Positions 2 through 24,468 of a DNA stretch of 64,000 nt are shown here, one piece after another; positions within the stretch are counted from its first letter, which is position 1, and every line of letters begins with the position of its first letter. This stretch comes from Planctomycetota bacterium. Its GTDB lineage: Bacteria > Planctomycetota > UBA1135 > UBA2386. Made by a program: the position numbers and the translations under genes. Where the stretch lies: positions 1-64,000 of the forward strand of contig JAPYTD010000019.1 of NCBI GenBank assembly GCA_029936315.1, in the 5' to 3' direction. A model generated the notes under the pieces. That model searched no databases and was not told the origin of the DNA. It worked only from the letters and a program-made list of their open reading frames with translations.

Positions 2-160
2 CTGATCTGGGGCATGATGCCAGTCGCGTTCATGGTCGCGGCTTCGGCAGTCACCTTGATCGTTGTCAGCCTCGCCACCAAACCGCTGCCTGGCAGCACC
101 ATCGACCGCTACTTTGACCTCGGCCTGCAGGAAGCCGACCGGCAAGGTGAAGCCTCCTGA
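2..160 (+). CDS. C-terminal end of a membrane transporter, possibly sodium:solute symporter (5' partial)
   Basis: Open frame from the window edge: LIWGMMPVAFMVAASAVTLIVVSLATKPLPGSTIDRYFDLGLQEADRQGEAS*; hydrophobic helix plus short tail. Family call is weak. Confidence 0.5.
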   Translation: MIWGMMPVAFMVAASAVTLIVVSLATKPLPGSTIDRYFDLGLQEADRQGEAS

Positions 161-170
161 TCGCCACGAC

Positions 171-5912: not shown

Positions 5913-5919
5913 CCGCACC

Positions 5920-7245
5920 ATGCGCGTGATGTTGCTGACACCCGGCACCGGCCACTTCTACTGCGGTAGTTGCTTGCGCGACGATGCACTCGGCCGCGGG
6001 CTGCAACGCATCGGCCATGAAGTCTCTGTGGTGCCATTGTATCTGCCGCTGCAACTCGAGCGGGAGCACCCGGAGGCAACGGTGCACATGGGCGGCATCA
6101 ACGTCTACTTGCAGCAGAAGACCCGCCTGGCGCGCTTTCTGCCGCGGTTCGTCGCCAACCTGCTCGACCGGCCCAGCCTCCTACGATGGGCTTCCAAACG
6201 CGGCAACATGACGAACGCCGCCGAGCTTGGACCGATGACCGTTTCGATCCTGCGCGGTGAGTGTGGCAAACAGGCGCTCGAAGTCGACAAGCTCGTGAAG
6301 TGGATCGCGACGCAACCCAAACCGGATGTCGTGATCGTCTCCAATGCGATGCTGATGGGCATTGTGCGCCGGCTGCGCCAAGAGATCTCCGCGCCGATCC
6401 TCGTCACCTTGCAAGGCGAGACGCCGTTCCTCGATGTGCTGCCCGACGTGCACGCGCAAGCTGCCTGGTCGGCCCTGCGCGAACGCAGCGCCGAAGTAGA
6501 CGGGCTGATCGCGGTCAGTGAGACCTACGGCAACCTGATGCGCGAGCGCCTCGGGATCTCCCCAGACAAACTGCACGTCGTGCACAACGGCATCGAGATC
6601 GAAGAGCTGCAAGGCTGCCCACAACCTGCAGCGGAGCGGCGTCCCAAGACGATCGGCTACCTCGCCCGCATGTGCCACGACAAAGGCCTGGACACTTTGC
6701 TCGACGCGTTCCTTCTACTCAAGCAACGCGGCACCATCGACGGCCTGCGGCTGCGCATCGCCGGCGTACAATTGGCGGAAGACCGACCCTACGTCACCGG
6801 CCTGCAGGCGCGCATCGCGCAGCACGGTTGCCAGGGCGACGTCGAGTTCCTGGCCAACGTCGATCGCCGGACGAAGATCGAATTCCTGCACACACTGTCG
6901 GTTCTATCGGTGCCTGCGCGCCTCCAGGAGTCGTTCGGCCTCTACCTGTTGGAAGCCATGGCGGCAGGGGTCCCAGTCGTGCAACCGCGCCACGCTGCAT
7001 TCCCCGAGATCCTCGCGGCAACGGGTGGCGGGTTGCTCTGCGAACCCGGCAGCCCGTCATCTCTGGCCGACACCCTGACAACCGTGCTCACCAACGACAA
7101 ACTGGCGGCCGATCTCGGCGTCAAGGCTCGCACCTCGGTCACGACAAAATTCACGGCCGAACACATGGCCCAACGCGTCGCAAGGATCTGCGAACAGTTG
7201 CTCGCACCCCCGGGTATCGCTGCTGCGACCAACATCGCACACTAG
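5920..7245 (+). CDS. Glycosyltransferase family 4 / GT1-like
   Basis: MRVMLLTPGTGHFYCGSC start; VVHNGIE; RLQESFGLYLLEAMAAGVPVVQP. Confidence 0.88.
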   Translation: MRVMLLTPGTGHFYCGSCLRDDALGRGLQRIGHEVSVVPLYLPLQLEREHPEATVHMGGINVYLQQKTRLARFLPRFVANLLDRPSLLRWASKRGNMTNAAELGPMTVSILRGECGKQALEVDKLVKWIATQPKPDVVIVSNAMLMGIVRRLRQEISAPILVTLQGETPFLDVLPDVHAQAAWSALRERSAEVDGLIAVSETYGNLMRERLGISPDKLHVVHNGIEIEELQGCPQPAAERRPKTIGYLARMCHDKGLDTLLDAFLLLKQRGTIDGLRLRIAGVQLAEDRPYVTGLQARIAQHGCQGDVEFLANVDRRTKIEFLHTLSVLSVPARLQESFGLYLLEAMAAGVPVVQPRHAAFPEILAATGGGLLCEPGSPSSLADTLTTVLTNDKLAADLGVKARTSVTTKFTAEHMAQRVARICEQLLAPPGIAAATNIAH

Positions 7246-7296
7246 TGCCTCGCTAGTTCGCTTGCGGACCACCCCCGCTCCCCAGAGACTCTCCGT

Positions 7297-7827
7297 ATGC
7301 AAACCTGGATCCTGTTCGCCTTGTTGACCGTGGTGTCGTGGGGCCTGTATGGCGTGCTACTGCACAGCGGACAGTCCAGCATGGGCGACCCCGAGAACGG
7401 GCGCTACAAAGCCTTCTTCTGGGTCGGTATCGCGTACTTCTTGATCGCTGTGCTCGCGCCTGCCGGCATGTTGCTGGCCGCGAAGGCGTCGTGGTCGATG
7501 CCAGGCAAGGCCATTGGGCTGTCGCTGGTGGCCGGCGCAGTCGGCGCCGTTGGCGCGTTCGGCGTGCTGCTCGCGTTTGGTGCCAAGGGCCATCCAGCCG
7601 CAGTGATGTCGATCATCTTTGCGGGGGCCCCAATCGTGAATGCCGTCGTCGCCATGTCGCTGCATCCGCCGGCCGGCGGCTGGGGCAAGCTCGACTGGCG
7701 CTTCTTGCTCGGCATCGTGCTCGCGGCCACCGGCGGCCTGATGGTCAGCCTGTTCAAGCCTGCCCCCGCCGCGCCTCAGAAGCCACCTGCCATCGAGCAG
7801 AGCCAACCGCCGAACAAACCTGGGTAA
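7297..7827 (+). CDS. Small DMT/EamA-like membrane protein
   Basis: About 5 predicted TM segments (WILFALLTVVSWGLYGVLL..., GAVGAVGAFGVLLAFGAKG), EamA-like. Confidence 0.65.
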   Translation: MQTWILFALLTVVSWGLYGVLLHSGQSSMGDPENGRYKAFFWVGIAYFLIAVLAPAGMLLAAKASWSMPGKAIGLSLVAGAVGAVGAFGVLLAFGAKGHPAAVMSIIFAGAPIVNAVVAMSLHPPAGGWGKLDWRFLLGIVLAATGGLMVSLFKPAPAAPQKPPAIEQSQPPNKPG

Positions 7828-7838
7828 GACGAAGCACG

Positions 7839-8528
7839 ATGAATCCACCCCTGGTCGAACTGCAGCAAGTCGACAAACACTTCGGTCGTCAAACCGAGGT
7901 GTTGCGATGCATCGACCTGGATGTGCACCCTCGCGACACCGTTGCTGTGCTCGGCCCATCCGGATCCGGTAAGAGCACGCTCCTCAACATCCTTGGTGGA
8001 CTGCTACCGCCAAGCAGCGGCAACGTGCGGTTCGATGGCCAAGACCTGCACGGCCGCGACCAGAAGGAACTCGCGGCCCTGCGCAACCGAGAAATCGGCT
8101 TCATCTTCCAGGCGCACCACTTGCTGCCACAATGCTCGGCTCTCGAGAACGTGCTGGTGCCAACGCTCGTGCACCCCAAAGGCGAACTGCGCAACTCGGC
8201 GCCAGAACGGGCGCGCCAACTGCTGACCGAAGTCGGGCTTGGTGAGCGATTGCAGCATCGACCAAGCGAACTGTCAGGCGGCGAGCAACAACGCGTCGCC
8301 GTGGTGCGCGCGCTGATCAACCAACCGCGACTGCTGCTCGCCGACGAACCCACCGGATCGCTGGACGAACAGGCAACCGATCATCTCGGCGATCTGCTGT
8401 GCCAACTCAACGAACGCCATCACGTCGCATTGGTCACGGTCACCCACTCCCGCCGTCTCGCAGCACGCATGAGTCGCGTCCTGACTCTGCGTGACGGTTC
8501 CCTGACCGAAGCGCCCGCGCCCCAATGA
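7839..8528 (+). CDS. ABC transporter ATP-binding protein (LolD/MacB type)
   Basis: Walker A GPSGSGKST, signature LSGGEQQRVAVVRALINQPRLLLADEPTGSLD. Confidence 0.93.
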   Translation: MNPPLVELQQVDKHFGRQTEVLRCIDLDVHPRDTVAVLGPSGSGKSTLLNILGGLLPPSSGNVRFDGQDLHGRDQKELAALRNREIGFIFQAHHLLPQCSALENVLVPTLVHPKGELRNSAPERARQLLTEVGLGERLQHRPSELSGGEQQRVAVVRALINQPRLLLADEPTGSLDEQATDHLGDLLCQLNERHHVALVTVTHSRRLAARMSRVLTLRDGSLTEAPAPQ

Positions 8529-11500
8529 ACGGCTGGCTGCTAGCGCGGCGCGGCATGCGTCACTATTGGCGCACGCACCTCGGCGTGCTGCTCGGCGTCG
8601 CGTGCGCCACAACCGTGTTGGTCGGCGCCTTGTCCGTCGGCGACTCGGTCCGGCACAGTCTACTCGAGCAATCCTTGTGGCGAATTGGCCAGGTCTCCTC
8701 AGTGCTGGCGACTGGCGACCGCTTCGTGCAGGAGGATCTCGGCACTCGCATCGCTACCGCGATTGGCACGACCAACGACAGCAGCATAGTGCCGCGATGT
8801 GTGCCCGCCATCCAACTGGCGGGTGTCGCAGCAAGCGCCAGCGGCAAGACCCGCACCGGCATTGTCGATGTGTTTGGTGTCGACAACCGATTCTTCGCAA
8901 TGAGCGCTGGTGGCAAGCAGCTGCCCGCCCTCAGCGCTGGTGAAGCCATCCTCAATGAGCGGCTGGCCGCGCAACTTGGCGTCACGGTCGACGAAGAGAT
9001 CGTCGTGCGCGTTGAGAAGCCGAGCCTGATGCCGCGGGAAGCGGCGATGGCAACGGTCGACGACGTCTCGTTCGCACTGCGCGTCAAGATCCTCGACATC
9101 GTCGACGAACAGGAGTTCGGCCACTTCGGCCTGCGCGCAAGCCAGGTGCCGCCGTTCAATCTGTTCGTGTCGTTGGCGTGGCTGCAGCAAGAACTGTCCC
9201 TGCCGGGCCGCGCCAACATGCTGCTGACCGACGCATCGGTCGAGGCAGCCGACGCAGCCCTTCGAACCAAGTGGACGATCGCCGACGCCGAACTGAAGCT
9301 GACGAAGCGAGACCTTGGCAGGACCGTTGAGCTGACCAGCACGCGCGTCTTTCTCGATTCCGCAGTGGTCGACGCCGTCGCAGAGATTGCACCTGAGTCC
9401 GTCGGCGTCGTGACCTACTTCGTCAAATCGCTCAGCACGAAGACCGCGAGCACGCCCTATTCGATGGTGAGCGCCATTGGACCGATCAGTTCGCACCCCC
9501 CGATTGCGAGTTCGCGCATACCTGCCGCCCTCGCCGCGACGCAGGCGTTGGTACCCGAGACCACGCGCGACGATCAGATCATCTGCAACCAATGGCTCGC
9601 GGATGACCTCAACCTGAAGGTCGGCGATGCGATCGAGATGGCCTATTGGGTCATGAACAGCCAGCTGCAGTTTGAGGAGCGTACTCACAGCCTACGCGTG
9701 CACTCGATCGTGCCCATGACCGGAGCCGCCGCCGACCCAAGCCTGATGCCGGCGTTTCCGGGCCTCGCGGAAGCGAGAAGTTGTTCCGATTGGGACACGG
9801 GCATTCCGGTCGATCTGCAGCAACTCAGCGACAACGACCAAAAGTACTGGGAAGAGAACCGGGGCACGCCCAAGGCCTTTGTCACCCTGGCTACTGGCCA
9901 GCGACTGTGGCGCAACCGCTTTGGCACATTGACGGCCGTACGTGTCTCTGCAAACGACGCCATACAACTCGCGCGACAGCTGCCGGAGTTGGTCGAACCC
10001 AAAGCGCTCAACCTGTTCTTCCAAGACATCCGCGGCCCAGCGCTCGCCGCCGGAGTTCCCGCGACCGACTTTGGCGCGCTCTATCTTGGGCTCAGTTTCT
10101 TCCTGATCGTCGCAGCGCTACTGCTCGCGGCCATGCTGTTCGCGTTTGGCGTCGAACAACGCCAGGGCGAGATCGGCACTCTGCTCGCGGTTGGCTTCGA
10201 ACCGCGCACCGTGCACTGGCTGTTTGCCCGTGAAGCGTTGGTGCTGGCAACGATCGGGAGCGCCATCGGGGCCATCGCCGGCGCTGGTTACACGCACGCA
10301 GTGCTTGCCGCACTCGACACTCTGTGGCGCGACACCATTGGCCAGACCACCCTGACAGCGCACATCGTGCCCTCATCCGTGGCGTTCGGCGCATGCTGCG
10401 CGGTGCTCGCCGCATTGCTCGCCATCGCGTGGGCGATGCGCCGCACGTTCAGCAGACCCGCGGTCGAGTTGCTTACGTCGGCATCCGGTGTCGAACTGCC
10501 GCGCGCGAGACGTCGCTGGCTGACAACCGCGTTGTCGTTGGCGGCGTTGGCCGGCGCCGCCTTCTTGATCGGGCGCGCCCAGCCCAACCGTGCCACGAGC
10601 GCGTTCTTCGGCGGCGGTGCCTTGTTGCTGATCAGCGCCCTGTTCGCCTGCCGCAACCTGGTAACGCAACTCGGCAAGAAGACATCCGTAGGCCTACGCA
10701 GCATCGCGGCACTAGGAATGCGCAACTGCGGCCGCCGTCCCGGCCGCAGCCTGGCGACGATCGCCCTGTTGGCCAGCGGCACGTTTCTGGTGGTCGCGAT
10801 CCAAGCCAACCGTTTGACGCCACCTGTGGATGCCAGCCAGCGCAGCGCGGGAACTGGCGGTTTCACGCTGTTTGGGCGCACCACGCTGCCGGTGTTGCGC
10901 GACCTCGATAGCACTGCGGGGCGCGAAGCGTATGGCCTCGACGACGACGAACTGGCGGGCGTCGCGATCGTGCCGCTGCGCGTTCGCAGTGGCGACGACG
11001 CCAGCTGCCTCAACCTCGCGACAGCGCAGAACCCACAGTTGGTTGGCGTCGAGGCAGACCAACTCGCCAGACGCGCATGCTTCCGCTTCACGCGCTTCGA
11101 AGCAGCGGCAGAACCAGTCAGCAACCCATGGCTGCTACTCGATCGTGACTTCGGCGCCAACATCGTGCCGGCGATTGGCGACGGCGGCAGCGTCGCTTGG
11201 GCACTGCACAAGAAACTCGGCGATTCGCTGACCTACCGCGATGAAGCGGGCAATGACTTCCAGGTTCGCATCGTCGGCACCGTGGCCGACTCGATCCTGC
11301 AAGGCAACCTGATCATCGCCGACCATCACCTGCAACAGCGGTTTCCGTCAGCGTCCGGCTACCGCATGTTCTTGATCGATGCGCCGAGCGAACGCACCGA
11401 GCAGGTCGCCGCCGATCTGAGCCGCGCGCTGCTCGATGTCGGCCTCGAACTGACGCCAACTTCCGAACGACTCGCCGCGTTCCAGTCGGTGCAGAACACC

Positions 11501-11875
11501 TACCTGTTGATCTTCCAATTGCTCGGCGGCCTTGGCTTGTTACTCGGCACGGTTGGCCTCGGAATCGTGGTCTTGCGCAACGCCTTGGAACGCCGCGGTG
11601 AGCTCGCCATCGCGCGTGCCGTTGGCTTCGATCATGCTGCCGTGCGCCGTCTCGTGTTCCATGAGCACGGCGTGCTGCTGGCACTCGGACTGGCAGTTGG
11701 CGCAGTTGCTGCAGGGCTCGCACTACTGCCGGCGCTGCGCGCAGAGCGGGCGATGCCCATCTTGCCGATCCTCGGGTTCCTGGCGGTCATTGCGCTGAGC
11801 GGAGTATTTTGGGTCTGGGCCGCGAGCGCCCTGGCAACCCGCGGCCGCATGATCGACGGCTTGCGCGGCGACTAG
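8525..11875 (+). CDS. Large FtsX/MacB-type ABC permease
   Basis: 1116 aa with N-terminal TM, large extracytoplasmic domains and two C-terminal-type FtsX TM clusters; 4-bp ATGA overlap with the ATPase. Confidence 0.88.
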   Translation: MNGWLLARRGMRHYWRTHLGVLLGVACATTVLVGALSVGDSVRHSLLEQSLWRIGQVSSVLATGDRFVQEDLGTRIATAIGTTNDSSIVPRCVPAIQLAGVAASASGKTRTGIVDVFGVDNRFFAMSAGGKQLPALSAGEAILNERLAAQLGVTVDEEIVVRVEKPSLMPREAAMATVDDVSFALRVKILDIVDEQEFGHFGLRASQVPPFNLFVSLAWLQQELSLPGRANMLLTDASVEAADAALRTKWTIADAELKLTKRDLGRTVELTSTRVFLDSAVVDAVAEIAPESVGVVTYFVKSLSTKTASTPYSMVSAIGPISSHPPIASSRIPAALAATQALVPETTRDDQIICNQWLADDLNLKVGDAIEMAYWVMNSQLQFEERTHSLRVHSIVPMTGAAADPSLMPAFPGLAEARSCSDWDTGIPVDLQQLSDNDQKYWEENRGTPKAFVTLATGQRLWRNRFGTLTAVRVSANDAIQLARQLPELVEPKALNLFFQDIRGPALAAGVPATDFGALYLGLSFFLIVAALLLAAMLFAFGVEQRQGEIGTLLAVGFEPRTVHWLFAREALVLATIGSAIGAIAGAGYTHAVLAALDTLWRDTIGQTTLTAHIVPSSVAFGACCAVLAALLAIAWAMRRTFSRPAVELLTSASGVELPRARRRWLTTALSLAALAGAAFLIGRAQPNRATSAFFGGGALLLISALFACRNLVTQLGKKTSVGLRSIAALGMRNCGRRPGRSLATIALLASGTFLVVAIQANRLTPPVDASQRSAGTGGFTLFGRTTLPVLRDLDSTAGREAYGLDDDELAGVAIVPLRVRSGDDASCLNLATAQNPQLVGVEADQLARRACFRFTRFEAAAEPVSNPWLLLDRDFGANIVPAIGDGGSVAWALHKKLGDSLTYRDEAGNDFQVRIVGTVADSILQGNLIIADHHLQQRFPSASGYRMFLIDAPSERTEQVAADLSRALLDVGLELTPTSERLAAFQSVQNTYLLIFQLLGGLGLLLGTVGLGIVVLRNALERRGELAIARAVGFDHAAVRRLVFHEHGVLLALGLAVGAVAAGLALLPALRAERAMPILPILGFLAVIALSGVFWVWAASALATRGRMIDGLRGD

Positions 11876-12018: not shown

Positions 12019-13860
12019 ATGAACACCACTTCTGCCACGCTGTCGATTCCATTCTTGTTTGCTGGGGTCCTGGCCGCGCAAGCGCACGCAGGGTCAGCGG
12101 AAGAGGCAGCACTCGAGTCTGCGTTCCTGGCACAGATGGACGGCTGCCGCATGGTCGGTCACTTCACCGAAACCGGTTCAGACAAGCCACCGCAGAAGGA
12201 CAGCTACACGATTGCGGCGGTCAAGAAACTGCGCGATGAGAAGTGGCAGTTCGATGCCAAGATCGAATACGGCAGCAAGTCGGTGACGCTGCCGCTTGCG
12301 GTCGATATTTATTGGGCCGGTGATACGCCGACCATCCAGGTCAGCAGGCTACTCGTGCCAACGCTTGGCACGTTCGACGCGCGCATCGTTCTGCATGGCA
12401 ACCAATACGCTGGCCTTTGGTCCGGCAAGAATCACGGCGGCTACATGTATGGCGTCATCGAGCCACTACCCAAACCCAAGGAACAACAAGATCCAAAAGG
12501 CAAGGGCGCACGATGGGCGACGTGGCGCGGGCCGGATGGATCCGGCGTTGCACCAAACAGCAACCCGCCGACGGAATGGAGCGAAGACAACAACGTCAAG
12601 TGGAAGGTCACCGTGCCCGGCCTCGGCAACTCAACGCCGATCATTTGGGGAGACCGCATCTACCTGACGACCGCGGTCGAAACGGATGAAGAAGGTGCCG
12701 CGCCCAAGCTGCCGGACGCGAGTCCGCGCGCTGGCGCCGGAGGCGGTCGCACGCGACCCGGTAGCACTCGACCGGGCGGCAATCGCAGTGGCCGTGGCAA
12801 CCGGCGTGGTGGTCGACGCGGCGGCTGGGGCAGCAAGCCGGCACCGACCAAGGTGTTCGACTTCCGCGTCGTCGCCCTCAATCGTAACGACGGCTCGGTA
12901 ATCTGGAGCAAGAGCGTCAAGAAGGCGGTGCCACACGAAGGCGGCCACGCGACCGGTTCGCAAGCATCGGGCTCCCCCATTACCGACGGCGAACACATCT
13001 ACGCGCATTTTGGTTCGCGCGGCATCCACTGCCTCGATATATCGGGCGAACTGATCTGGTCGAAGGACTTCGGCCACATGCGCACGCGCAATCAGTTCGG
13101 GGAAGGCAGTTCGCCAGCACTGTCCGGCGACACGCTGATCATCAACTGGGACCACGAAGGCGATTCCTTCGTCTGCGCACTCAACAAGAAGACTGGTGAC
13201 GAGATCTGGCGCAAGCCGCGCAGAGAATCCACTAGCTGGACGACGCCGCTGATCGTCGAAGTCGACGGCAAGCGGCAGGCGATCATCGTCGCTACCGGTG
13301 CCACGCGTGCCTACGACGTCGCGACCGGCGACGTCATCTGGAGCACCACCGGCATGACGACCAACGCGATCCCGTCGCCGATCGTTCGCGACGGCATTGC
13401 TTACCTGATGAGCGGGTTCCGCGGAGCCGCGCTGCAAGCCATCAAACTGTCGGGCGCCAAGGGCGACATCACCGAGACCGAGCACATGCTGTGGCGCCAC
13501 AACCGCCAGACCTCGTACGTGCCTTCGGCCCTGCTCTACGGCAAGCACCTCTACTTTCTGCGCAGCAACACCGCGGTGCTGACATGCCTCGACGTCGAGA
13601 CCGGCAAGCCCGCGTTCGAAGGCCAACGCCTGTCCGGCCTGCGCACGGTCTATTCGTCCCCCGTCGGCGCCGGTGGCCGCATCTACCTACCGTCGCGCGA
13701 AGGCGTCACCAAGGTCTTCAAGGCCGGGGCAACGTTCGAAGAACTGGCAACGAACGAACTCGATGATGTGTTCGACGCGAGCCCAATCGTGATCGGCGAC
13801 GAGCTGTACCTGCGTGGCCACGAAGCGCTCTACTGCATCGCGAAGACCGAGAAGAAGTAG
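12019..13860 (+). CDS. PQQ-like beta-propeller repeat protein with RG-rich insert
   Basis: Signal peptide; WATWRGPDGSG, WKVTVPGLGNSTPIIWGDRIYLTTAVET, repeated propeller blades. Confidence 0.88.
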   Translation: MNTTSATLSIPFLFAGVLAAQAHAGSAEEAALESAFLAQMDGCRMVGHFTETGSDKPPQKDSYTIAAVKKLRDEKWQFDAKIEYGSKSVTLPLAVDIYWAGDTPTIQVSRLLVPTLGTFDARIVLHGNQYAGLWSGKNHGGYMYGVIEPLPKPKEQQDPKGKGARWATWRGPDGSGVAPNSNPPTEWSEDNNVKWKVTVPGLGNSTPIIWGDRIYLTTAVETDEEGAAPKLPDASPRAGAGGGRTRPGSTRPGGNRSGRGNRRGGRRGGWGSKPAPTKVFDFRVVALNRNDGSVIWSKSVKKAVPHEGGHATGSQASGSPITDGEHIYAHFGSRGIHCLDISGELIWSKDFGHMRTRNQFGEGSSPALSGDTLIINWDHEGDSFVCALNKKTGDEIWRKPRRESTSWTTPLIVEVDGKRQAIIVATGATRAYDVATGDVIWSTTGMTTNAIPSPIVRDGIAYLMSGFRGAALQAIKLSGAKGDITETEHMLWRHNRQTSYVPSALLYGKHLYFLRSNTAVLTCLDVETGKPAFEGQRLSGLRTVYSSPVGAGGRIYLPSREGVTKVFKAGATFEELATNELDDVFDASPIVIGDELYLRGHEALYCIAKTEKK

Positions 13861-14203: not shown

Positions 14204-15139
14204 GTGTCGCTGCTGGCGTTACCTTTCCCGAACCGCCCCGGCTCCCTACCAACAGTGAACATCCACAAAGCCGTCATTACGGCCGCAGGACCCGACCAAC
14301 GCTCGCTGCCTCTGCAGTCCTTGGTCGATCGCGACGGCACGGAAAAACCCGCCTTGGCGATCATCCTCGAGGAAGCCGCCAGTGCCGGCATCCAAGAGGT
14401 CTGCATCGTCGTGCACCGCGGGGACCGTGACGTCTACGCATCGACGCTGCCCGAAACGGGCGTGAAGATCCTCTACACGGAACAGCCGGAACCCCGCGGG
14501 TACGGGCATGCACTGTTCTGTGCCAAGGATTTCGTCGGGGATGATCCGTTCCTCCACCTCGTCAGCGACCACCTCTACATCAGCTATGGAGCTCGTACCT
14601 GCGCCCAGGAACTGGTCGAGATCGCCAGCCGCGAAGAGGCCGCCGTGTCCGCCGTGCAGCCGACCCGGGAGAGCATGTTGCCCTACTACGGAGTCGTCAG
14701 CGGAGTGCGCGAGGGCCGCAACAAGTCGCTCTACTCGGTTCGAGAAGTCATCGAGAAGCCGACTCCGACGCGGGCCGAACAATCCCTGGTGGTCCCCGGC
14801 CTGCGCGCTGGCCACTACCTATGCTTCCACGGCATGCACGTGCTCACCCCCACTGTAATGGAGATCCTCGCCGAGGACGTCGCCGCATCCGACACCTCGA
14901 CATCACCGAACAATGCACGCGTGCAACTGTCGACCGCCCTCAATCGCCTGGCCACCAAACAGCGCTACCTGGCCTTCGAGACGCTTGGCCATCGATACAA
15001 CATCGGCGTGAAGTACGGCCTCCTCAACGCACAACTCGCCCTCGCCCTGAGTGGCGACGACAGCGAGTTCGTTCTCTCGCAGATGCTTGAGCTGCTCGCC
15101 ACCCGTGAGCGCCAGATGATCTCGCAACGCGCCGACTAG
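14204..15139 (+). CDS. GalU-like nucleotidyltransferase (divergent)
   Basis: HKAVITAAGPDQRSLPLQ...KPALAIILEEAASAGI, EQPEPRGYGHALFCAKDFVGDDPFLHLVSDHLY. Alternative GTG start at 14255 is likely. Confidence 0.8.
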   Translation: MSLLALPFPNRPGSLPTVNIHKAVITAAGPDQRSLPLQSLVDRDGTEKPALAIILEEAASAGIQEVCIVVHRGDRDVYASTLPETGVKILYTEQPEPRGYGHALFCAKDFVGDDPFLHLVSDHLYISYGARTCAQELVEIASREEAAVSAVQPTRESMLPYYGVVSGVREGRNKSLYSVREVIEKPTPTRAEQSLVVPGLRAGHYLCFHGMHVLTPTVMEILAEDVAASDTSTSPNNARVQLSTALNRLATKQRYLAFETLGHRYNIGVKYGLLNAQLALALSGDDSEFVLSQMLELLATRERQMISQRAD

Positions 15140-15162
15140 CCGAACAACGGATTGTCCTCACG

Positions 15163-18100
15163 ATGGTCAGCGAACTGATTTCCGTCATCGAATCCAACGC
15201 GCCGGCAACTCGGAATACGCCGCTCGAATCGATCTGTGCTGGCTGGCCGCGCGACCAATTGCTGGCCGAGTGCCAGGAACTCGACGCCTTCCGTCGATCG
15301 AGCGACAACCTCTATCATCGCGTGCGGGCACTCTTCTTCCTGTACGCGATCCACCGGTTCCACCTCCCTGGTTGCGGCGATCTACCACCGCTGGGCTTGG
15401 TTCCGTTCCCTGGCTTCAAGCTGCTACTCTCGCGACGGTTCGAAGAAGCGATCGAGTTGTTCCTGCAGGCGCAGAAGAAGAACGGCCCCAGCGACGCCAT
15501 CAGTAGCGCGCTCAGCACGAGTTATCACCAACTCGCCTTCCAGACCCTGGCCGATCAGGTCCGCCACAGTGTGCGCTCCGCGACTGGCAACCAGTGGATG
15601 TTCCGCATCGGCCACCCGAGCGATCACCCCCTGCGCATACGGCGCGAGTTGCAGACCCGATCGAAGCACGGCCCCTACCCATTGCTCCGGGAGCAGACCG
15701 CGGTCCGCATGGACCTCACCCACAGCGCCTGGAGTGACATCTTCTTCCTGGGCATGGACTACCCCGAGGCCGCGAAAGTCCTCAACGTCTCCGTCGACCT
15801 CGGCGTGCACAACCGAGACCAAAAGCCGCAGCCGCCGATCGAAGCCTGGCTCCGGCTGATCGACGAGCCGGTCCTACGGTTGACGAGTGTTGATCTCGCC
15901 GCCACGGCCGACATCACGGAACTCAACGAAGTCTTCGACTACGCCAAAGACTACCTGGGCCTGATCAAGGCCGCGGTCATCGCGTCGGGCATCGTGCCGC
16001 CGGGCATGGAAGGCTCGGGCCAGAGCCTCGGCGATCTGCTCGCACGTCTCGCCGGCCACGGGCGCGGCATCGAGATCGTCAGCTACGTGCGCGACATTCC
16101 GAAGGGCTCGCGCCTGGCTGTGTCGACCAATCTTCTCGGTTCGCTGATCGCCGTCTGCATGCGCGCGACCGGGCAGACCCAGAACCTCGTCGGCGACCTC
16201 TCCGAAGCCGAGCGACGGATCGTCGCCGCTCGCGCGATCCTCGGCGAATGGCTCGGCGGCTCCGGCGGTGGCTGGCAGGATTCGGGTGGCGTGTGGCCGG
16301 GGATGAAGTTGATCACTGGCCAGCTCGCGACCCAGGGGGACCCCGAGTTCGGCATCAGTCGCGGTCGGTTGCTCCCGGATCACCAAATCCTCACCGACGC
16401 CGACGCCAGCCCCGAAGTCCGCCAGCGACTACAGGACAGCATGGTCTTGGTGCATGGCGGCATGGCCCAGAACGTCGGTCCGGTCCTCGAGATGGTCACC
16501 GAGAAGTACCTCCTGCGATCCGCCGATGAGTGGCTCTGTCGCCACGATGCTCTGCAGGTGCTCGACGAGGTGCTCGACGCGCTCCGATCCAACGACATCC
16601 CAGGCCTCGCTGCCGCGACCTCGCGCAACTTTGAGGGTCCGATCCAAGGCATTATCCCGTGGGCCTCCAACCTGTTCACCGAGACGGTGATCGAGAAGGT
16701 TCGAAAACGACACGGCACCGACTACCTCGGCTTCTGCATGCTCGGCGGGATGTCGGGCGGCGGGATGGGCTTCCTGTTCAAACCCCACGCACGCGCCGCG
16801 GCCCAAGAGGATCTCCTCGAGATCATGATCACGTGCAAACGCGAACTTGAGAGCGGTATGCCGTTCGCCATGGACCCGGTGATCTACGACTTCGAGATCA
16901 ACACACGCGGTACGTGGTGCACGATCCTCGAAGGCAAAGACGCGCTGCTGCCAGCCCAGTACTACACCCTGATCGTGCCCGGTCTGCTGCAACAGAAACG
17001 CCACCGCCTACCCGTACTGCGCCGCGCCGAACTCGACCGTTTCGGCAGCGCCTGCCGCAACCGTCCGGAACTCAAATGGGTCGTCGGATCCCTGTTCGAC
17101 CGACTCTTTCCCAGGCTCCAGGGCAAGCGATCCAGTGCCGAAACCCTGCCGGTCCTACTCGAAGCCAACGGCTTCGACGCCCACCTCCACGCGGAGATCC
17201 GCATCGACCTACGGGCGGGGAGGATCGGCCTGGCGCAGAATCGACTACCGGCCAATACGGAGATCCTCGACGCGCGGCCGGCAGATGTCATCGACACCCT
17301 CGACGGCCGCCCAAAGGCCGACCACGAGCGCGGCGCCGCGGCCCTGGCCGCGGGGCGAGTCGGCATCGTCACCTTGGCCGCCGGCGCCGGCAGTCGATGG
17401 ACCCAGGGCGCTGGCGTCGTCAAGGCCATCAACCCGTTCTGCAAGTTCGCCGGCCGGCACCGCACGTTCCTCGAAGCACACTTGGCCAAGAGCCGCCGTA
17501 CCGGCGAGCTCCACGGCACACAACCGACCCACGTCATCACGACGAGCTACCTCACCCACGGCCCGATCAGCGACCACCTGCAGCGGCGCTCGAACTACGG
17601 CTACCGAGGCCCGCTCCACCTCTCGCCCGGCCGCGCCGTCGGCCTGCGCCTGGTGCCGATGGAACGCGACCTGCGATTCGCATGGGAAGAGTTGCCCCAG
17701 CAGATGCTGGACGAACAGGCCCAGAAGGTGCAGGACAGCCTGCACAATGCGCTGATCGGTTGGGCCCAGGAGGCCGGCGAAGCCACCGACTACACGGACA
17801 ACCTACCGAATCAGTGCCTCCACCCCGTCGGTCACTGGTTCGAAGTCCCCGGCCTCCTGCGCAACGGCGTGCTCCGCACGATGCTCACCGAGCGGCCGCA
17901 ACTCGAGCACCTGCTGCTCCACAACATCGATACCCTCGGCGCGGACCTCGACCCCGCCATCTTGGGCGTGCACATCGACCGCGGCGCCACGCTGAGTTTC
18001 GAAGTCACCCCGCGGCGGCTCGAAGATCGGGGCGGCGGACTGGCCCGTGTCGACGGCCAACCGCGACTGATCGAAGGCCTCGCGATGCCGCGCGAAGAGG

Positions 18101-18489
18101 ATGAGTTCCAGCTCTCCTACTACAATTCCCTGACGACTTGGATCCACATCGACGGCTTGCTGGAGAAGTTTCAACTCGATCGCGACGACCTCGACGACAC
18201 CGCGAAGGTGGACAGTGCCGTGCGACGCATCAGCACCAAGATGCCGACCTACGTCACGCTCAAGGAAGTCAAGAAGCGCTGGGGTCACGGCCAGGAGGAC
18301 GTCTTCCCGGTGACCCAGTTCGAGAAGCTCTGGGGCGATATGTCCGCCCTACCAGGCTTGCGATGTGACTACATCGTCGTGCCACGGTTCCGCGGCCAAC
18401 AGCTGAAGGATCCAGACCAACTTGATGGTTGGCTGCGCGATGGGTCCGCCGCCCACGTGGACTCGCTGTGCTCGTGGACCGACGACTGA
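15163..18489 (+). CDS. Putative bifunctional GHMP-type sugar kinase / UDPGP-family nucleotidyltransferase
   Basis: N-terminal half: VRMDLTHSAWSD, PKGSRLAVSTNLLGSL, GGSGGGWQDSGGVWPG, GGMSGGGMGFLF (FKP/heptokinase-like GHMP motifs). C-terminal half: VTLAAGAGSRWTQGAGVVKAINPF and UDPGP-like downstream region. Confidence 0.75.
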   Translation: MVSELISVIESNAPATRNTPLESICAGWPRDQLLAECQELDAFRRSSDNLYHRVRALFFLYAIHRFHLPGCGDLPPLGLVPFPGFKLLLSRRFEEAIELFLQAQKKNGPSDAISSALSTSYHQLAFQTLADQVRHSVRSATGNQWMFRIGHPSDHPLRIRRELQTRSKHGPYPLLREQTAVRMDLTHSAWSDIFFLGMDYPEAAKVLNVSVDLGVHNRDQKPQPPIEAWLRLIDEPVLRLTSVDLAATADITELNEVFDYAKDYLGLIKAAVIASGIVPPGMEGSGQSLGDLLARLAGHGRGIEIVSYVRDIPKGSRLAVSTNLLGSLIAVCMRATGQTQNLVGDLSEAERRIVAARAILGEWLGGSGGGWQDSGGVWPGMKLITGQLATQGDPEFGISRGRLLPDHQILTDADASPEVRQRLQDSMVLVHGGMAQNVGPVLEMVTEKYLLRSADEWLCRHDALQVLDEVLDALRSNDIPGLAAATSRNFEGPIQGIIPWASNLFTETVIEKVRKRHGTDYLGFCMLGGMSGGGMGFLFKPHARAAAQEDLLEIMITCKRELESGMPFAMDPVIYDFEINTRGTWCTILEGKDALLPAQYYTLIVPGLLQQKRHRLPVLRRAELDRFGSACRNRPELKWVVGSLFDRLFPRLQGKRSSAETLPVLLEANGFDAHLHAEIRIDLRAGRIGLAQNRLPANTEILDARPADVIDTLDGRPKADHERGAAALAAGRVGIVTLAAGAGSRWTQGAGVVKAINPFCKFAGRHRTFLEAHLAKSRRTGELHGTQPTHVITTSYLTHGPISDHLQRRSNYGYRGPLHLSPGRAVGLRLVPMERDLRFAWEELPQQMLDEQAQKVQDSLHNALIGWAQEAGEATDYTDNLPNQCLHPVGHWFEVPGLLRNGVLRTMLTERPQLEHLLLHNIDTLGADLDPAILGVHIDRGATLSFEVTPRRLEDRGGGLARVDGQPRLIEGLAMPREEDEFQLSYYNSLTTWIHIDGLLEKFQLDRDDLDDTAKVDSAVRRISTKMPTYVTLKEVKKRWGHGQEDVFPVTQFEKLWGDMSALPGLRCDYIVVPRFRGQQLKDPDQLDGWLRDGSAAHVDSLCSWTDD

Positions 18490-18561: not shown

Positions 18562-19803
18562 CTATTTTCCAGTTGGCTTGCCGAGGCAGATCAGCTCATC
18601 CGCTGTGCGAACAAACATCGCACCCCGCGCCAACGCCGGTGTCGCGCACACGGAGGCACCGAGATCAAAGCCCCCCAGCACCGCGAACTTCGTCTTCGAG
18701 AACGTCCACAGCCTGCCTTCGCGATCGCAGATGTAGATCGCCTTGCCATTGCTTACGGGCGAACTGAAGAACTTGCCGTCGATGCGTTCGCGCCACAACT
18801 CCTCGCCGCTATCCGCATTGAGGCAGCTCGCAAAACCACTGTCCGCGAACAGGAAGAACTTGCCATGCAACGCGATGGCACTCGGCACGTAGGGCAAGCT
18901 GCGACGGCGCTTGTAGCTGATCTTCGGTTCATCCTTGGCGCCCTTGCCGATCTCAAACACAACGCACTGCTTGCCGGAGTTGCCGCTGCCCGTGTTGACG
19001 AGCAGTTTGTTGCCCGCAAGGCACGGCGCCGCGATGAAGCGACTCTTGAAGCCAGGATTGGCCCGCCAGCGAATCTTGCCGGTCTCTGGCTCGAACGCCG
19101 TTAAGCCGTGCGCCGCGCTCGCAACCATCATCACAGGCTTGCCATCCTTGGGTTCGTACAAGAACGGTGGCGAGTAGCACGCAAACCGCGGACTCTTCGC
19201 CAGTTCTTCGCGCCAGACTGTTTTGCCCGTCTTGCGATTGAGGGCCATCAGGAAGCAGTCGTCGCCTTCGTTTTCGTTCGCAATGACGACGAGCTCGCCG
19301 TGCATTACCGGCGAGTTGCCGCTGCCGTGCTGCGCGTAGTAGCCACCGAGTTCGCGCTGCCACAACTCTTGGCCGTCATGGCTGACTGCGAGCGCGACCA
19401 GCTTCTCAGCTGAACTCCACACCATGTAGACGCCATGGTCATCGGTAACGGGAGTTGCGGACGCAAAGCTGTTGAGCTTGTGCTGCTTGTGTCCCTCGAA
19501 CGCGCACGAGTAGGACCAAGACTCCTTGCCGGTGACGGCGTCGTAGCAGACAACATCGCGCGTATCCCGTTCTTCGCCGAGTCGCGTGATGTATACGTGC
19601 GCGCCCCACAGCACCGGAGATGAGTGGCCCGTACCACCGATCGTCGTGCGCCATCGGATGTGATCCTTGGTGAACGTGGTCGGAAGATCCGCAACACCAA
19701 CACCCTGACCACCTGGCCCGCGAAAGCGTGACCACTCCTGCCCTACCGCACAGTCAGTGGCGGCGACTGACAACAAGCAACCCAACACAAACGCGGATCT
19801 CAT
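18562..19803 (-). CDS. PQQ-like beta-propeller repeat protein
   Basis: Signal peptide MRSAFVLGCLLSVAATDCAVGQEWSRFRGPGGQGV; blades with WRTTIGGTGHSSPVLWGAHVYITR etc. Confidence 0.88.
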   Translation of the reverse strand: MRSAFVLGCLLSVAATDCAVGQEWSRFRGPGGQGVGVADLPTTFTKDHIRWRTTIGGTGHSSPVLWGAHVYITRLGEERDTRDVVCYDAVTGKESWSYSCAFEGHKQHKLNSFASATPVTDDHGVYMVWSSAEKLVALAVSHDGQELWQRELGGYYAQHGSGNSPVMHGELVVIANENEGDDCFLMALNRKTGKTVWREELAKSPRFACYSPPFLYEPKDGKPVMMVASAAHGLTAFEPETGKIRWRANPGFKSRFIAAPCLAGNKLLVNTGSGNSGKQCVVFEIGKGAKDEPKISYKRRRSLPYVPSAIALHGKFFLFADSGFASCLNADSGEELWRERIDGKFFSSPVSNGKAIYICDREGRLWTFSKTKFAVLGGFDLGASVCATPALARGAMFVRTADELICLGKPTGK

Positions 19804-21260
19804 TTGGTGGCACCCAGGCAGTAGAGGTGGCCGTAGGTGCGCAGCCAGATCTTGTCGTCAACGAGTGCTGGGGTCGCATAGCACGGTTCGTCGAAGTTCG
19901 CGGAGTGGATCGGCTTCAACTCCTTGCCGGCCGCGAGCACCGTCAGCAGGCCGTTCTCACTCAACAGGTAGACCTTGCCATCGCCGCAAACCGGCGCGGT
20001 GAAGTAGGCGTCACCCGCTTCCCCAACGCGATTCTTCTCGATCAACTCACCCTTGTCAGCACTGATCATCGTCATCAAGCCGCCCTGATCGGACAGCAGA
20101 TAATAGACGCCATTGGTGATCAGCGGCGACGGTAGTTGCGGAATCGAGCGGTAGTAGCGCCACAAGACGCTCTTGTCGGTCATGTCGCCAGTGCCGCCAA
20201 CGCGCACGGCCATCGCCGCATTGACCGACGCAAACGACAGCCGACACAACCGCCATTCGTCCTGGTCCAACGCCCCGCTCTTGTCGAGATCGAGGAACTG
20301 GTAGTAGCGCGCGATGCGCCGATCGGTCAGTTCTTTGCGCCCGATGAAGCCATCGCCGTCCTTATCCATCTTGGCGACGGCATCGGCAAACTCCGCTATC
20401 TTGATCTGCCTTCCCTTGTTGTTCTGCGGGCTACCAAAGCCGTGGATCCACAAGGTGTCGCCGAGCAGCACTGGCACCGACTTCATCTCGGATGGCAAAC
20501 CGCGGATCCACCAGATGCGCTTACCAGTCTTCGCGTCGTAGCCATCCAGCAAGAACGAACCTGGCAAGATGAACTGCGGATCCTCGCCCTCTGGTTCGTA
20601 GATCACCGGCGTGCAGTGGCCGCTGACAGCATTGGGTCGATCGACCTTGTAGCGCACGTCGCCCGAGTGCTTGTCGACCCCGATCACATAGGACGCCTTG
20701 CCGTCGTCGCATGGCAGCACGACCGTGTCGCCAACGATGATTGGCGAAGCTCCCATGCCGTAGATGTTGAAGAACGGACCGAGCGGCATGCGCCAGCGCT
20801 CTTTGCCGTTGAGGTCGTAGGCGAGCATGCCGTATTCGTCAAAGAACACCGCAACCGTGTCGTTGTCGACCGCTGCTGATGCGGCAGCCGGACCGTTCTT
20901 GCGGTGAAACTTGGTACGGCGCGGCCGCGGCGCCTCCACGCGCCAGACGATTTCTCCGTTGTCGCGGTTGATGCCGTAGGTGTAGAGCTTCTCGTCCTCG
21001 ACGGCGGTCAAGAACATCAGCTTGTCGCTGAACACCGGCGAGCTGTGGCCTTCGGGAAACGCACGCTTCCAGATCACGCCCTGCTGCGGCCCGACTTCGG
21101 CTGGATACTTGCCTTCGGCCATGCCAGTGCCGTTAGGACCGCGGAAGCGATTCCATGGCGATGTGCCATGCGATGTAGCCCCTTCCTGTGCGATGACAGG
21201 AATCGTTGCAAGGGTCGCGAGCAGGGCGGCCCGAACCGACAGGGACGTGCGTTGCAGCAT
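19800..21260 (-). CDS. PQQ-like beta-propeller protein with EF-hand pair
   Basis: WNRFRGPNGTGMAEG; propeller blades; EF-hand loops DKDGDGFIGRKEL and DLDKSGALDQDEW. Internal ATG (MLQRTS...) preferred; 4-bp overlap with 19803. Confidence 0.87.
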   Translation of the reverse strand: MLQRTSLSVRAALLATLATIPVIAQEGATSHGTSPWNRFRGPNGTGMAEGKYPAEVGPQQGVIWKRAFPEGHSSPVFSDKLMFLTAVEDEKLYTYGINRDNGEIVWRVEAPRPRRTKFHRKNGPAAASAAVDNDTVAVFFDEYGMLAYDLNGKERWRMPLGPFFNIYGMGASPIIVGDTVVLPCDDGKASYVIGVDKHSGDVRYKVDRPNAVSGHCTPVIYEPEGEDPQFILPGSFLLDGYDAKTGKRIWWIRGLPSEMKSVPVLLGDTLWIHGFGSPQNNKGRQIKIAEFADAVAKMDKDGDGFIGRKELTDRRIARYYQFLDLDKSGALDQDEWRLCRLSFASVNAAMAVRVGGTGDMTDKSVLWRYYRSIPQLPSPLITNGVYYLLSDQGGLMTMISADKGELIEKNRVGEAGDAYFTAPVCGDGKVYLLSENGLLTVLAAGKELKPIHSANFDEPCYATPALVDDKIWLRTYGHLYCLGATK

Positions 21261-21329
21261 GTGCCCAAGGTATTGCCATGCCGCCAGCCGCCCAGCAGCA
21301 AGCAAGCCGGCAGGCACCAAGTTACGAAT

Positions 21330-21793: not shown

Positions 21794-23059
21794 TTACTTG
21801 CGTTGCGATTCTTCGATGCGATACAGATGGGTCTTGCTGCGCAGGATCAGCGCGTTGCCGAGTACTGCCGGTGACGACATGAAGCCATCATCAAGGCTGT
21901 TGGTCGCCAGCTTCTCAAACTTGTCGCCCTTCTTGATGACCACGGTCGTGCCACTGCGATCAAAGTAGTAGATGCGGTCTCCGATGCAGATCGGCGACGC
22001 GCAGTGCGTGCCGCCGACTCGTTCGCGCCAGACCGCTTTGCCGGTTAGGCAATCGAGGCACGTTGCGAAGCCACCGTCATCGATCATGTAGATACGGTCG
22101 CCGGCAAGAATCGGGGACGCCATCTTGGGAACGTTGCGCGAGTAGGACCAGATGATGTTCTTCTTCGTGACGTCGCCTGTGCCGCCTGTCTGCACGGCGA
22201 TCATCTGCGCACGCATGAACCCAGTAGTCAAAAACACCACGTCGTCTCGGACCAGCGGCCGTGGCGCCATCGAGAACCCCTTGAAGCCAACGCGCCACAG
22301 TTCTTTGCCGGTGCCGGGATCGTAGGCGTAGCTCGCTTGGGCGCCGCAGCTGATGATTTGGAACTTGCGGCCAACCTGGACGGCGATCGGCGTGCTGTAT
22401 GCCTTGCGCAGATCCGGAGGGTATCTGGTCAGATTCACCGATCGATCGGTGCGCCATTGGGTCTTGCCCGTCTCCTTGTCGAGCGCGACCACATACTGCA
22501 CGTCGCCGCCGTCGACATTGAAGATCAGCAAGTCCTGAAACAGGATCGGCGACGACCCCGGCCCTTCCATGTGGTCGCACTGCAGGTCGCGCCGTTCCCA
22601 GATCGTCTCGCAAGTCTCAACGTCGAGGCAGGCCGTACCATAGCTGCCAAAGTGCACATACACGCGGCCGGCCTCAACCGTCGGCGACGGGGAGGCAAAG
22701 CTGTTGAGAGAGTTCTTGGGCTCCGGCTTGGCGTTCTCAAAGACCACTCGCTCGAACAGTTGCTTGCCGGTAGTCACATCAAACGCGAGTACGTGCAACT
22801 TCTTGCCGCTGTCCGTCGACGTTGTCATCCACGCGATGCCGTCGTCAACAACCGGCGACGACCAACCGGTGCCGAGCACCTTGCGCTTCCAACGAACGTT
22901 GTCCTGCTCGCCCCACTCAAGCGGCACGTCGGCTTTGCGAACGTAGCCGCTGCGATCGCCGCCGCGATAGTCCGGCCAGGAGGCAACCTGGGCCGCCAGC
23001 GAACCGACAACCAACGCAAGCATGCCGAGACGCATGCCGCCACTCACCGAGATGAACAT
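21794..23059 (-). CDS. PQQ-like beta-propeller repeat protein
   Basis: Signal peptide MRLGMLALVVGSLAAQ then ASWPDYRGGDRSGY...VRWKRKVLGTGWSSPVVDDGIAWMTT. The long upstream ORF extension is rejected; start is 23059 or 23035. Confidence 0.87.
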   Translation of the reverse strand: MFISVSGGMRLGMLALVVGSLAAQVASWPDYRGGDRSGYVRKADVPLEWGEQDNVRWKRKVLGTGWSSPVVDDGIAWMTTSTDSGKKLHVLAFDVTTGKQLFERVVFENAKPEPKNSLNSFASPSPTVEAGRVYVHFGSYGTACLDVETCETIWERRDLQCDHMEGPGSSPILFQDLLIFNVDGGDVQYVVALDKETGKTQWRTDRSVNLTRYPPDLRKAYSTPIAVQVGRKFQIISCGAQASYAYDPGTGKELWRVGFKGFSMAPRPLVRDDVVFLTTGFMRAQMIAVQTGGTGDVTKKNIIWSYSRNVPKMASPILAGDRIYMIDDGGFATCLDCLTGKAVWRERVGGTHCASPICIGDRIYYFDRSGTTVVIKKGDKFEKLATNSLDDGFMSSPAVLGNALILRSKTHLYRIEESQRK

Positions 23060-23115
23060 TGCCCCCATCCTACGCGCCAGTCGGAACGAAGCCGCGCACC
23101 AGATACCTTTGCGAC

Positions 23116-24468
23116 ATGCGCTCCCCTTCCGTTCTGTTGCTCTCCTCGGCAATGCTGCTCGCGCAGGGCGCAAGCTGGCCGCAGTTTCGTGGCAACCAAG
23201 CGTCTGGCGTCGAGGATCAGCAGCCGCTGCCCGAATCTTGGGACATCGCCAAGAACTCAGGCCTGAAGTGGCGAACGGCGGTGCCCGGGCTGTCACACGC
23301 ATCTGCGGTTGTCGCCGGCGACCGGCTGTTTGTCGTGACAGCCGTGGCGAAGGGCGGAAAGGCGAGCCTGAAGATCGGAGCCTATGGAGCCGGCGATTCC
23401 GCGGAGGACATGGTCGAGCACAGCTTCCAGGTCTGGTGCCTGCGTCTGGACGATGGCCGCGTCGATTGGGTGCGAACGGCCGTTCGATGCGTGCCGAAGT
23501 TTGCGCGTCACACCAAGGCAACCCACGCGGATCCAACGCCCGTCACGGATGGCCAGCACGTCATCGCCGTGTTCGGCGCGCAGGGCATGTTCTGCTACAC
23601 GGTCGCAGGCGATCTCGTCTGGCAGGTGGACCTGGGGGAACTCGACGTCGGACCGCACAACTCGATGGATCTGCATTGGGGCTACGCGAGTTCGCCAACG
23701 ATCGCCAACGGCCTCGTCATCGTGCAGGCGGACGTCAAGACCAAGCCTTACCTGGCGGCGTGGCACATCGACACCGGTAAGCCCGCGTGGCGCGTCGATC
23801 GCGACGACACCACCAGTTGGGCGACGCCGACCGTTGTGTCGACCGACGCCGGAAAACTCGTCTACGTCAATGGCTGCAAACACATGGGCGCCTACCGACT
23901 TGAAGACGGCAGCGAGGTCTGGCGCATGGCCGGCGGCGGCGGCTTGCCCGTTCCTGCGCCGATCGTTGCTGGCGACCTCGTGCTGTTCACGAGTAACCAC
24001 CGGCCACTCAAGTCGAGCCACCCGCTCAAGCCGGTGTTCGCGGTCAAACGCAGCGCGACCGGCCAACTGCCGATGCCGAGCCGCAACAACACCGGCGAGC
24101 ATGTGGCGTGGATGCAGACGCGCGTCGGCAACTACATCCAGACGCCAATCGTCTACCGCGACCTGCTCTACCTATGCGCACTGTCCGGCATCGTCTCGGT
24201 GGTCGACACCAAGACCGGAGAGGTCTACGGCCGCCATCGACTCGGCGTCGGCAAGGCAACGTTCTCGGCATCGCCAGTTGCAGGCGACGGCAAGCTCTAC
24301 TTCACGAGCGAAGAAGGCGATGTGCACGTCGTAAAGGCCGGCAAGGACTTCGAGCAACTCGGCATCAACCCACTCGGCGAAATCTGCATGGCAACCCCCG
24401 CAATCGCAAACGGCACCCTGCTATTTCGCGCCCGCAGCCACGTAATCGCCGTGCATCACCAGAAGTGA
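23116..24468 (+). CDS. PQQ-like beta-propeller repeat protein
   Basis: MRSPSVLLLSSAMLLAQGASWPQFRGNQASG, LKWRTAVPGLSHASAVVAGDRLFVVT; divergent from 21794-23059. Confidence 0.87.
   Translation: MRSPSVLLLSSAMLLAQGASWPQFRGNQASGVEDQQPLPESWDIAKNSGLKWRTAVPGLSHASAVVAGDRLFVVTAVAKGGKASLKIGAYGAGDSAEDMVEHSFQVWCLRLDDGRVDWVRTAVRCVPKFARHTKATHADPTPVTDGQHVIAVFGAQGMFCYTVAGDLVWQVDLGELDVGPHNSMDLHWGYASSPTIANGLVIVQADVKTKPYLAAWHIDTGKPAWRVDRDDTTSWATPTVVSTDAGKLVYVNGCKHMGAYRLEDGSEVWRMAGGGGLPVPAPIVAGDLVLFTSNHRPLKSSHPLKPVFAVKRSATGQLPMPSRNNTGEHVAWMQTRVGNYIQTPIVYRDLLYLCALSGIVSVVDTKTGEVYGRHRLGVGKATFSASPVAGDGKLYFTSEEGDVHVVKAGKDFEQLGINPLGEICMATPAIANGTLLFRARSHVIAVHHQK

Follow-up and report, generated by a model that had tools for sequence, protein, structure and literature searches.

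A kinase-first GHMP kinase–UDPGP nucleotidyltransferase fusion and its GalU-like partner gene, a predicted sugar-activating system of bacteria

Results and Discussion

Overall architecture of the fusion protein

The stretch of DNA analysed here (the window) comprises 64,000 nucleotides, positions 1 to 64,000 of contig JAPYTD010000019.1 in assembly GCA_029936315.1 of a Planctomycetota bacterium. Positions 15163–18489 (+) hold a single unbroken open reading frame (ORF) with an ATG at 15163 and a stop codon at 18487–18489, which encodes a protein of 1108 amino acids composed of a helical N-terminal domain, a fucokinase-like GHMP kinase, a linker and a UDPGP-type nucleotidyltransferase. The uninterrupted frame and all motifs quoted in the initial annotation, which had been made from the letters of the window alone, are present in this region. 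Profile matches, predicted fold and alignments bear out its description of a GHMP kinase followed by a UDPGP-type nucleotidyltransferase, i.e. the domain order of Bacteroides FKP reversed and a different nucleotidyltransferase family. However, the annotation missed a conserved GalU-like gene located upstream of the fusion.

The AlphaFold2 model of the fusion, calculated from an alignment of 84 homologues, has a predicted local distance difference test score (pLDDT) of 85.2 and a predicted template modelling score (pTM) of 0.85. The N-terminal half displays a GHMP fold and both active sites are kept, the two points on which the initial annotation had made its bifunctional reading depend. The N-terminal domain (residues ~1–156; 15163–15630, +) is modelled with nine helices within residues 4–147, and no Pfam, NCBIfam or PDB sequence match falls in this part.

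When genomes of 84,980 bacterial and archaeal species were scanned, 549 stretches were found to encode relatives of the fusion, the best 80 being near full length with 59–70% identity in the best segment. The 84 homologues (~60–73% identical), over which residue conservation was counted throughout, align end to end with a mean column identity of 61% and stem from Verrucomicrobiota, Chloroflexota, Planctomycetota, Acidobacteriota and other phyla. Since full-length relatives occur in many phyla, the ORF represents a genuine gene. A chance ORF, an assembly chimera or a misread frame might be suspected, as the window is GC-rich and contains numerous long spurious ORFs, but this explanation is refuted by the full-length two-domain protein in all 84 rows, including that of the cultured isolate Chthoniobacter flavus Ellin428. 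Kinase and nucleotidyltransferase halves are joined in every row (84/84), and no kinase-only relative was detected among 61 genomes searched. A search of the open-access literature returned no paper or experimental study on a GHMP kinase–UDPGP fusion.

In the tree of homologues the copy from the window groups with that of a planctomycete metagenome-assembled genome (MAG; L022) in a starred clade. Phyla are clustered, yet they do not form one clade each, and some transfer of the gene between phyla may have taken place. Within the phylum of the window the fusion occurs infrequently and in scattered genomes (19 of 392), and it was not found in three sampled genus-mates of the window genome. Two labels in the tree may reflect mislabelling or mis-binning: L028, assigned to Akkermansia muciniphila, is located among other Verrucomicrobiota MAGs, and L079, assigned to Candidatus Nealsonbacteria, adjoins Planctomycetota.

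The kinase half

The GHMP kinase domain spans residues ~170–600 (15673–16962, +). Residues 179–535 match the kinase half of the FKP model NF009948, the only NCBIfam model found for this part of the protein, with an E-value of 2.5e-16; the score of 58.6 bits covers the kinase half only and does not reach the curated cut-off of 721. Among PDB kinases, phmmer and profile searches with the N-terminal half return FKP fucokinase only. In Foldseek searches the FKP kinase domain (9iip) is matched with an E-value of 1.5e-18 and a TM-score of 0.85 by target length, a value that is also reached by the heptokinase WcbL. Profiles, AlphaFold2 model and Foldseek agree on a GHMP kinase whose nearest counterpart is the fucokinase part of Bacteroides FKP.

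In FKP, Trp599 stacks on C4–C6 of fucose, Asp601 and Thr602 bind O3/O4, Gln761 binds O4 and Asp762 is the general base, while Arg592 stabilises the leaving group, Glu751 is essential and the loop 712–720 binds ATP (PMC11982464). A hidden Markov model alignment places Arg592, Trp599, Asp601, Glu751, Gln761 and Asp762 of FKP opposite R182, W190, D192, E362, Q372 and D373 of the fusion; Thr602 falls on I193 and the loop 712–720 on residues 312–322. The first six residues are found in motif 1 (R182-x-D184...W190-S-D192; 15706–15738, +) and in the segment E362...GGGWQD373-S-GGVWPG (16246–16305, +). R182, W190 and D192 are present in 84/84 rows, and E362, Q372 and D373 in all 83 rows with residues at these positions. 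Moreover, S321 takes the place of the Mg-binding Ser719 of FKP. Apart from I193 and the glycines of the ATP loop, the mapped kinase residues are kept even in relatives at 44% identity. GGGTD-type heptokinase-like GHMP kinases of the same phylum lack the tryptophan corresponding to W190. A further conserved segment, motif 3 (GGMSGGGMGF, residues 528–537), is encoded at 16744–16776 (+).

The ATP loop (motif 2) reads IPKGSRLAVST at residues 312–322 (with flank 16096–16134, +) and is altered from PxxSGLGTSS; with PKGSRLAVSTN the fusion matches neither the glycine-rich loop GSGLGTSS nor the motif 2 consensus PxxxGLGSSAA. The initial annotation had called this motif atypical, and the deviation proved to be family-wide, with IPKGSRLAVST in 84/84 rows and also in the relatives at 44% identity.

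The nucleotidyltransferase half

The UDPGP-type domain comprises residues ~655–1101 (17125–18465, +). Pfam UDPGP (PF01704) matches residues 884–999 with 29.6 bits, above the cut-off of 22, and PDB sequence searches return UDP-glucose and UDP-GlcNAc pyrophosphorylases (UGP and UAP). Structures of the same enzymes are found by Foldseek (E ~1e-12, TM-score 0.5–0.6), and an hhalign comparison with stand-alone bacterial UDPGP proteins gives an E-value of 7e-36.

Key residues of Aspergillus nidulans UGP are Lys135, His228, Lys403, Asp258, Asn256 and Glu307, with Gln198 and Gly227 located at the uridine (PMC10470519). By alignment with 27 stand-alone bacterial UDPGP sequences and hhalign, Lys135, His228, Asp258, Asn256, Glu307 and Gly227 correspond to K754, H891, D923, N921, E971 and G890 of the fusion. 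K754 is the lysine of the NTP (nucleoside triphosphate)-binding loop segment LAAGAGSRWTQGAGVVK754A (17368–17430, +), which carries a three-residue insertion relative to stand-alone UDPGP proteins. The PVK lysine that serves catalysis in UGP/UAP is proposed to correspond to K1082 in R1075-x-RGQQLK1082 (18385–18420, +). The hhalign alignment pairs QFEKLWGDM...VVPR1075 with QIEHLIGEM...IRR and ends at R1075; extension of this register sets RGQQLK1082 against RFLPVK, an assignment based on the right spacing and on the invariance of the lysine (84/84), its position just before the helix 1084–1092 of the AlphaFold2 model and its retention in divergent members. A first MAFFT alignment had put the PVK lysine at T1051, which would have implied its loss, but this was overturned by hhalign, the invariance of K1082 and the divergent members; with the lysine placed at K1082, the idea of a dead nucleotidyltransferase was dropped. 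Like K1082, the residues K754, H891, D923, N921 and E971 are invariant (84/84).

The counterpart of the uracil-contacting Gln198, position 824, is Arg in 67, Lys in 16 and Gln in only one of the 84 rows. A first interpretation as altered nucleobase specificity was softened, as more distant members carry Gln or Ala. In addition, the UDPGP half contains an extra β-hairpin at residues 1029–1055.

The window genome also encodes two stand-alone UDPGP proteins of ~380–390 amino acids with the motif LNGGMATRFGGVVKG (C94:77702-78601, loci L002/L004, and C5:16262-16573, locus L003), a form common in related genomes.

The GalU-like partner gene

The gene upstream of the fusion encodes a protein with a GalU-like nucleotidyltransferase fold. 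Its longest ORF begins at GTG 14204 (311 amino acids), but the GTG at 14255 is the likelier start, as both the conserved region and the N-terminus of the relatives (MxIxKAVIT) fit there, giving a 294-residue protein at 14255–15139 (+). The stop codon lies about two dozen bases 5' of the fusion ATG, and an overlap of 4 bp between the two genes is common among other loci. In 71 of the 79 loci where it could be seen, the partner lies upstream of the fusion, and it is encoded elsewhere in eight of ten genomes in which the two genes are not adjacent or the contig ends at this point. Across the phylum (392 genomes), 14 of 15 genomes with the partner also carry the fusion (hypergeometric p ~1e-20, a value that ignores shared ancestry). 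A minus-strand 'conserved family' seen in ten loci overlaps the position of the partner and is probably antisense to its gene.

The partner is modelled with a GalU fold (pLDDT 93; structure match, E 4e-23), and its score of 100.5 bits against the GalU model TIGR01099 stays below the cut-off of 326.8. The GalU motif GxGTRxLPxTK is changed to xxQRxLPLQ, with loss of the second glycine and the threonine and replacement of the lysine; the triphosphate loop GxGTR is lost. Q94 (the uracil Gln), D122 (the metal Asp) and K185 (the lysine of EKP) are present in 61/61 sequences. The partner also has conserved residues of its own, Q32, Q38, D42 and H123, the last three being invariant. In GalF of Escherichia coli, GxGTR is altered to GLGMH and activity is lowered (PMC6888414), and GMPPA has been described as a paralogue of GMPPB that binds GDP-mannose without being catalytic (PMC11228364). 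By analogy, the partner might act as a regulatory or structural protein.

Because the partner is encoded nearby or elsewhere in almost every genome with the fusion, the one-protein salvage route from free sugar to activated sugar put forward initially is probably incomplete as to 'one-protein', and the conversion of a free sugar to an activated sugar is itself a prediction.

Proposed function and mechanism

The fusion is best explained as an FKP-like bifunctional sugar-activating enzyme that arose as a separate fusion, with a sugar of the L-fucose/D-arabinose type as the probable substrate and the GalU-like protein as a putative regulatory or structural partner. For this reading, which is drawn from sequence and predicted structure, a probability of about 0.6 appears appropriate. 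Given the conserved residues, the GHMP half would phosphorylate the anomeric hydroxyl of the free sugar, with D373 as general base and with R182/Mg-ATP, while W190, D192, Q372 and D373 would read an L-galacto arrangement as in L-fucose, D-arabinose or L-galactose. The UDPGP half (K754, H891, K1082 and D923 with Mg) would then join the sugar-1-phosphate and an NTP to yield a nucleoside diphosphate (NDP)-sugar and pyrophosphate. UTP would be the default of the family, yet the base-contacting Gln is mostly replaced by Arg or Lys. The partner, linked to the fusion as outlined above, could be non-catalytic or weakly catalytic, bind the NDP-sugar and regulate or assemble the enzyme, as GMPPA does with GMPPB or in the manner of a GalF-like altered GalU.

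Several observations weigh against this proposal. Both the sugar and nucleotide activity of the fusion and the role of the partner are predictions from sequence. Thr602 of FKP, which contacts the C3 hydroxyl, is replaced by I193, and in the ATP loop GLG is changed to RLA, so that both glycines are gone (R317, A319). Nucleotide specificity is unclear, since position 824 is mostly Arg or Lys and varies. Five divergent genomes with the fusion have no detectable partner. In the neighbourhoods of the loci no conserved neighbour, sugar-metabolism genes included, is seen except the partner. GH29 fucosidases are not enriched in genomes with the fusion (6/19 versus 127/373, Fisher p = 1), and the window genome has none, which leaves a role in fucose salvage unsupported from this side, as far as GH29, the one fucosidase family considered, is concerned.

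Some of these observations favour other explanations. It is possible, though rather unlikely, that the sugar is not fucose-like (e.g. a heptose, a uronic acid or L-arabinose), is converted to a UDP-sugar, and that the GHMP half is only distant kin of fucokinase. Overall identity to the FKP kinase of only ~18–19%, the equally good superposition of WcbL, the exchange at I193 and the missing GH29 association would all fit. However, FKP alone is found among PDB kinase sequences and NCBIfam models, and the fucose-stacking Trp as well as the counterparts of Asp601, Gln761 and Asp762 are kept, the Trp being the residue absent from the GGGTD-type kinases of the phylum.

Improbable is a nucleotidyltransferase formed by both proteins: either the partner would be an active enzyme whose triphosphate site has changed, or it would contribute to one active site together with the UDPGP domain, and the fusion alone would be inactive in the second step. 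The near-obligate co-occurrence of both genes, the retention of Q94, D122 and K185 in the partner and the strong constraint on its own invariant residues (Q38, D42 and H123) are compatible with such an arrangement, but every catalytic residue of UGP has an invariant counterpart in the fusion itself, and five genomes encode the fusion without a visible partner. There is even less reason to assume that the kinase half now serves in regulation or binding, which would leave a protein that is a nucleotidyltransferase only. Although two glycines of the ATP loop are replaced in every member, the general base, the Mg-binding S321, E362 and every sugar contact except one stay invariant down to relatives at 44% identity, a pattern not to be expected if the kinase were dead; the backbone NH provided by Gly717 in FKP is available from A319.

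If the FKP-like activity predicted for the fusion is true, a salvage fusion of kinase and nucleotidyltransferase arose at least twice, the second time in reversed order and with a different nucleotidyltransferase. A phylogenetic study from 2025 traces FKPs back to a single ancestral event in which fucokinase and GDP-fucose pyrophosphorylase were fused (PMC12732313) and mentions neither the present family nor its phyla nor UDPGP. The enzyme would further be a candidate biocatalyst for making activated derivatives of L-fucose or D-arabinose, possibly with a different nucleotide. Its partner would offer a bacterial example in which a nucleotidyltransferase with altered catalysis accompanies an active one. 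A more far-reaching version, doubtful at present, is a hitherto undescribed two-protein system of many phyla that makes an unexpected NDP-sugar from free sugar (e.g. L-fucose or D-arabinopyranose activated with UDP instead of GDP), uses a modified ATP loop and is controlled by the partner.

Gene neighbourhood

In the window the gene pair is flanked by five PQQ_2 β-propeller genes at 12019–13860 (+), 18562–19803 (-), 19800–21320 (-), 21794–23536 (-) and 23059–24468 (+), the third of which also has an EF-hand match. A co-directional run at 63–11875 (+) encodes an AMP-binding enzyme, an aldehyde dehydrogenase, an iron-containing alcohol dehydrogenase, a protein of 722 amino acids that combines a rotamase with a PQQ/ACSF4-type propeller, a GT4-type glycosyltransferase, an ABC ATPase and an FtsX-like permease of 1116 amino acids. 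No PADLOC match pointed to a role in defence, and neither a noteworthy intrinsic terminator nor a noteworthy sigma-70 promoter was seen.

Four Thermoflexus-type Chloroflexota loci (L025, L032, L043 and L053) have in common a gene of ~1190 codons that lies upstream of the pair. Of the 36 neighbours scanned, three each gave CHAT and NACHT domains, as totals that are not mapped to individual genes. A plasmid search yielded a single Hymenobacter plasmid, NZ_CP095065.1 of Hymenobacter volaticus (Bacteroidota), with the pair at 15001–18318 of locus L168. Here the partner is annotated as sugar phosphate nucleotidyltransferase, and the disrupted fusion is split over three frames with no listed gene.

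Comparison with known systems

The closest known counterpart is FKP of Bacteroides fragilis (NF009948), in which a fucokinase-type GHMP kinase, whose sugar-binding and catalytic residues recur in the fusion, is likewise joined to a nucleotidyltransferase on a single chain. In contrast to FKP, the fusion carries the kinase at the N-terminus and the nucleotidyltransferase at the C-terminus, and a UDPGP-type domain replaces the GDP-fucose pyrophosphorylase/β-helix domain, for which no Pfam match was obtained in the fusion at E<=1. Further differences are the altered ATP loop, the extra helical N-terminal domain and the conserved GalU-like partner. By score, domain order and type of nucleotidyltransferase, the fusion falls outside the FKP family.

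With the UDPGP family (UGP/UAP, PF01704) the fusion shares the fold and the catalytic residues K754, H891, D923 and K1082. It differs in the attached kinase, the insertion in the NTP loop, the exchange of the base-contacting Gln for Arg or Lys, the hairpin 1029–1055 and a sequence identity of only ~28–36%. The pairs GalU/GalF and GMPPA/GMPPB are resembled in the GalU fold of the partner and in the presumed pairing of an altered nucleotidyltransferase with an active one, which here, unlike in those pairs, would be a kinase-fused member of the UDPGP family. Moreover, more of the GxGTR loop survives in E. coli GalF, with its GLGMH, than in the partner (PMC6888414).

Sugar kinase and nucleotidyltransferase activities, as predicted for the fusion, are also combined in one polypeptide in HldE and in the vertebrate glucuronokinase/putative pyrophosphorylase. 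HldE is kinase-first as well and consists of a ribokinase-type kinase and a cytidylyltransferase-type domain, neither of which was found in the fusion by Pfam. The zebrafish enzyme is reported to be a glucuronokinase with a putative pyrophosphorylase part (PMC3938481).

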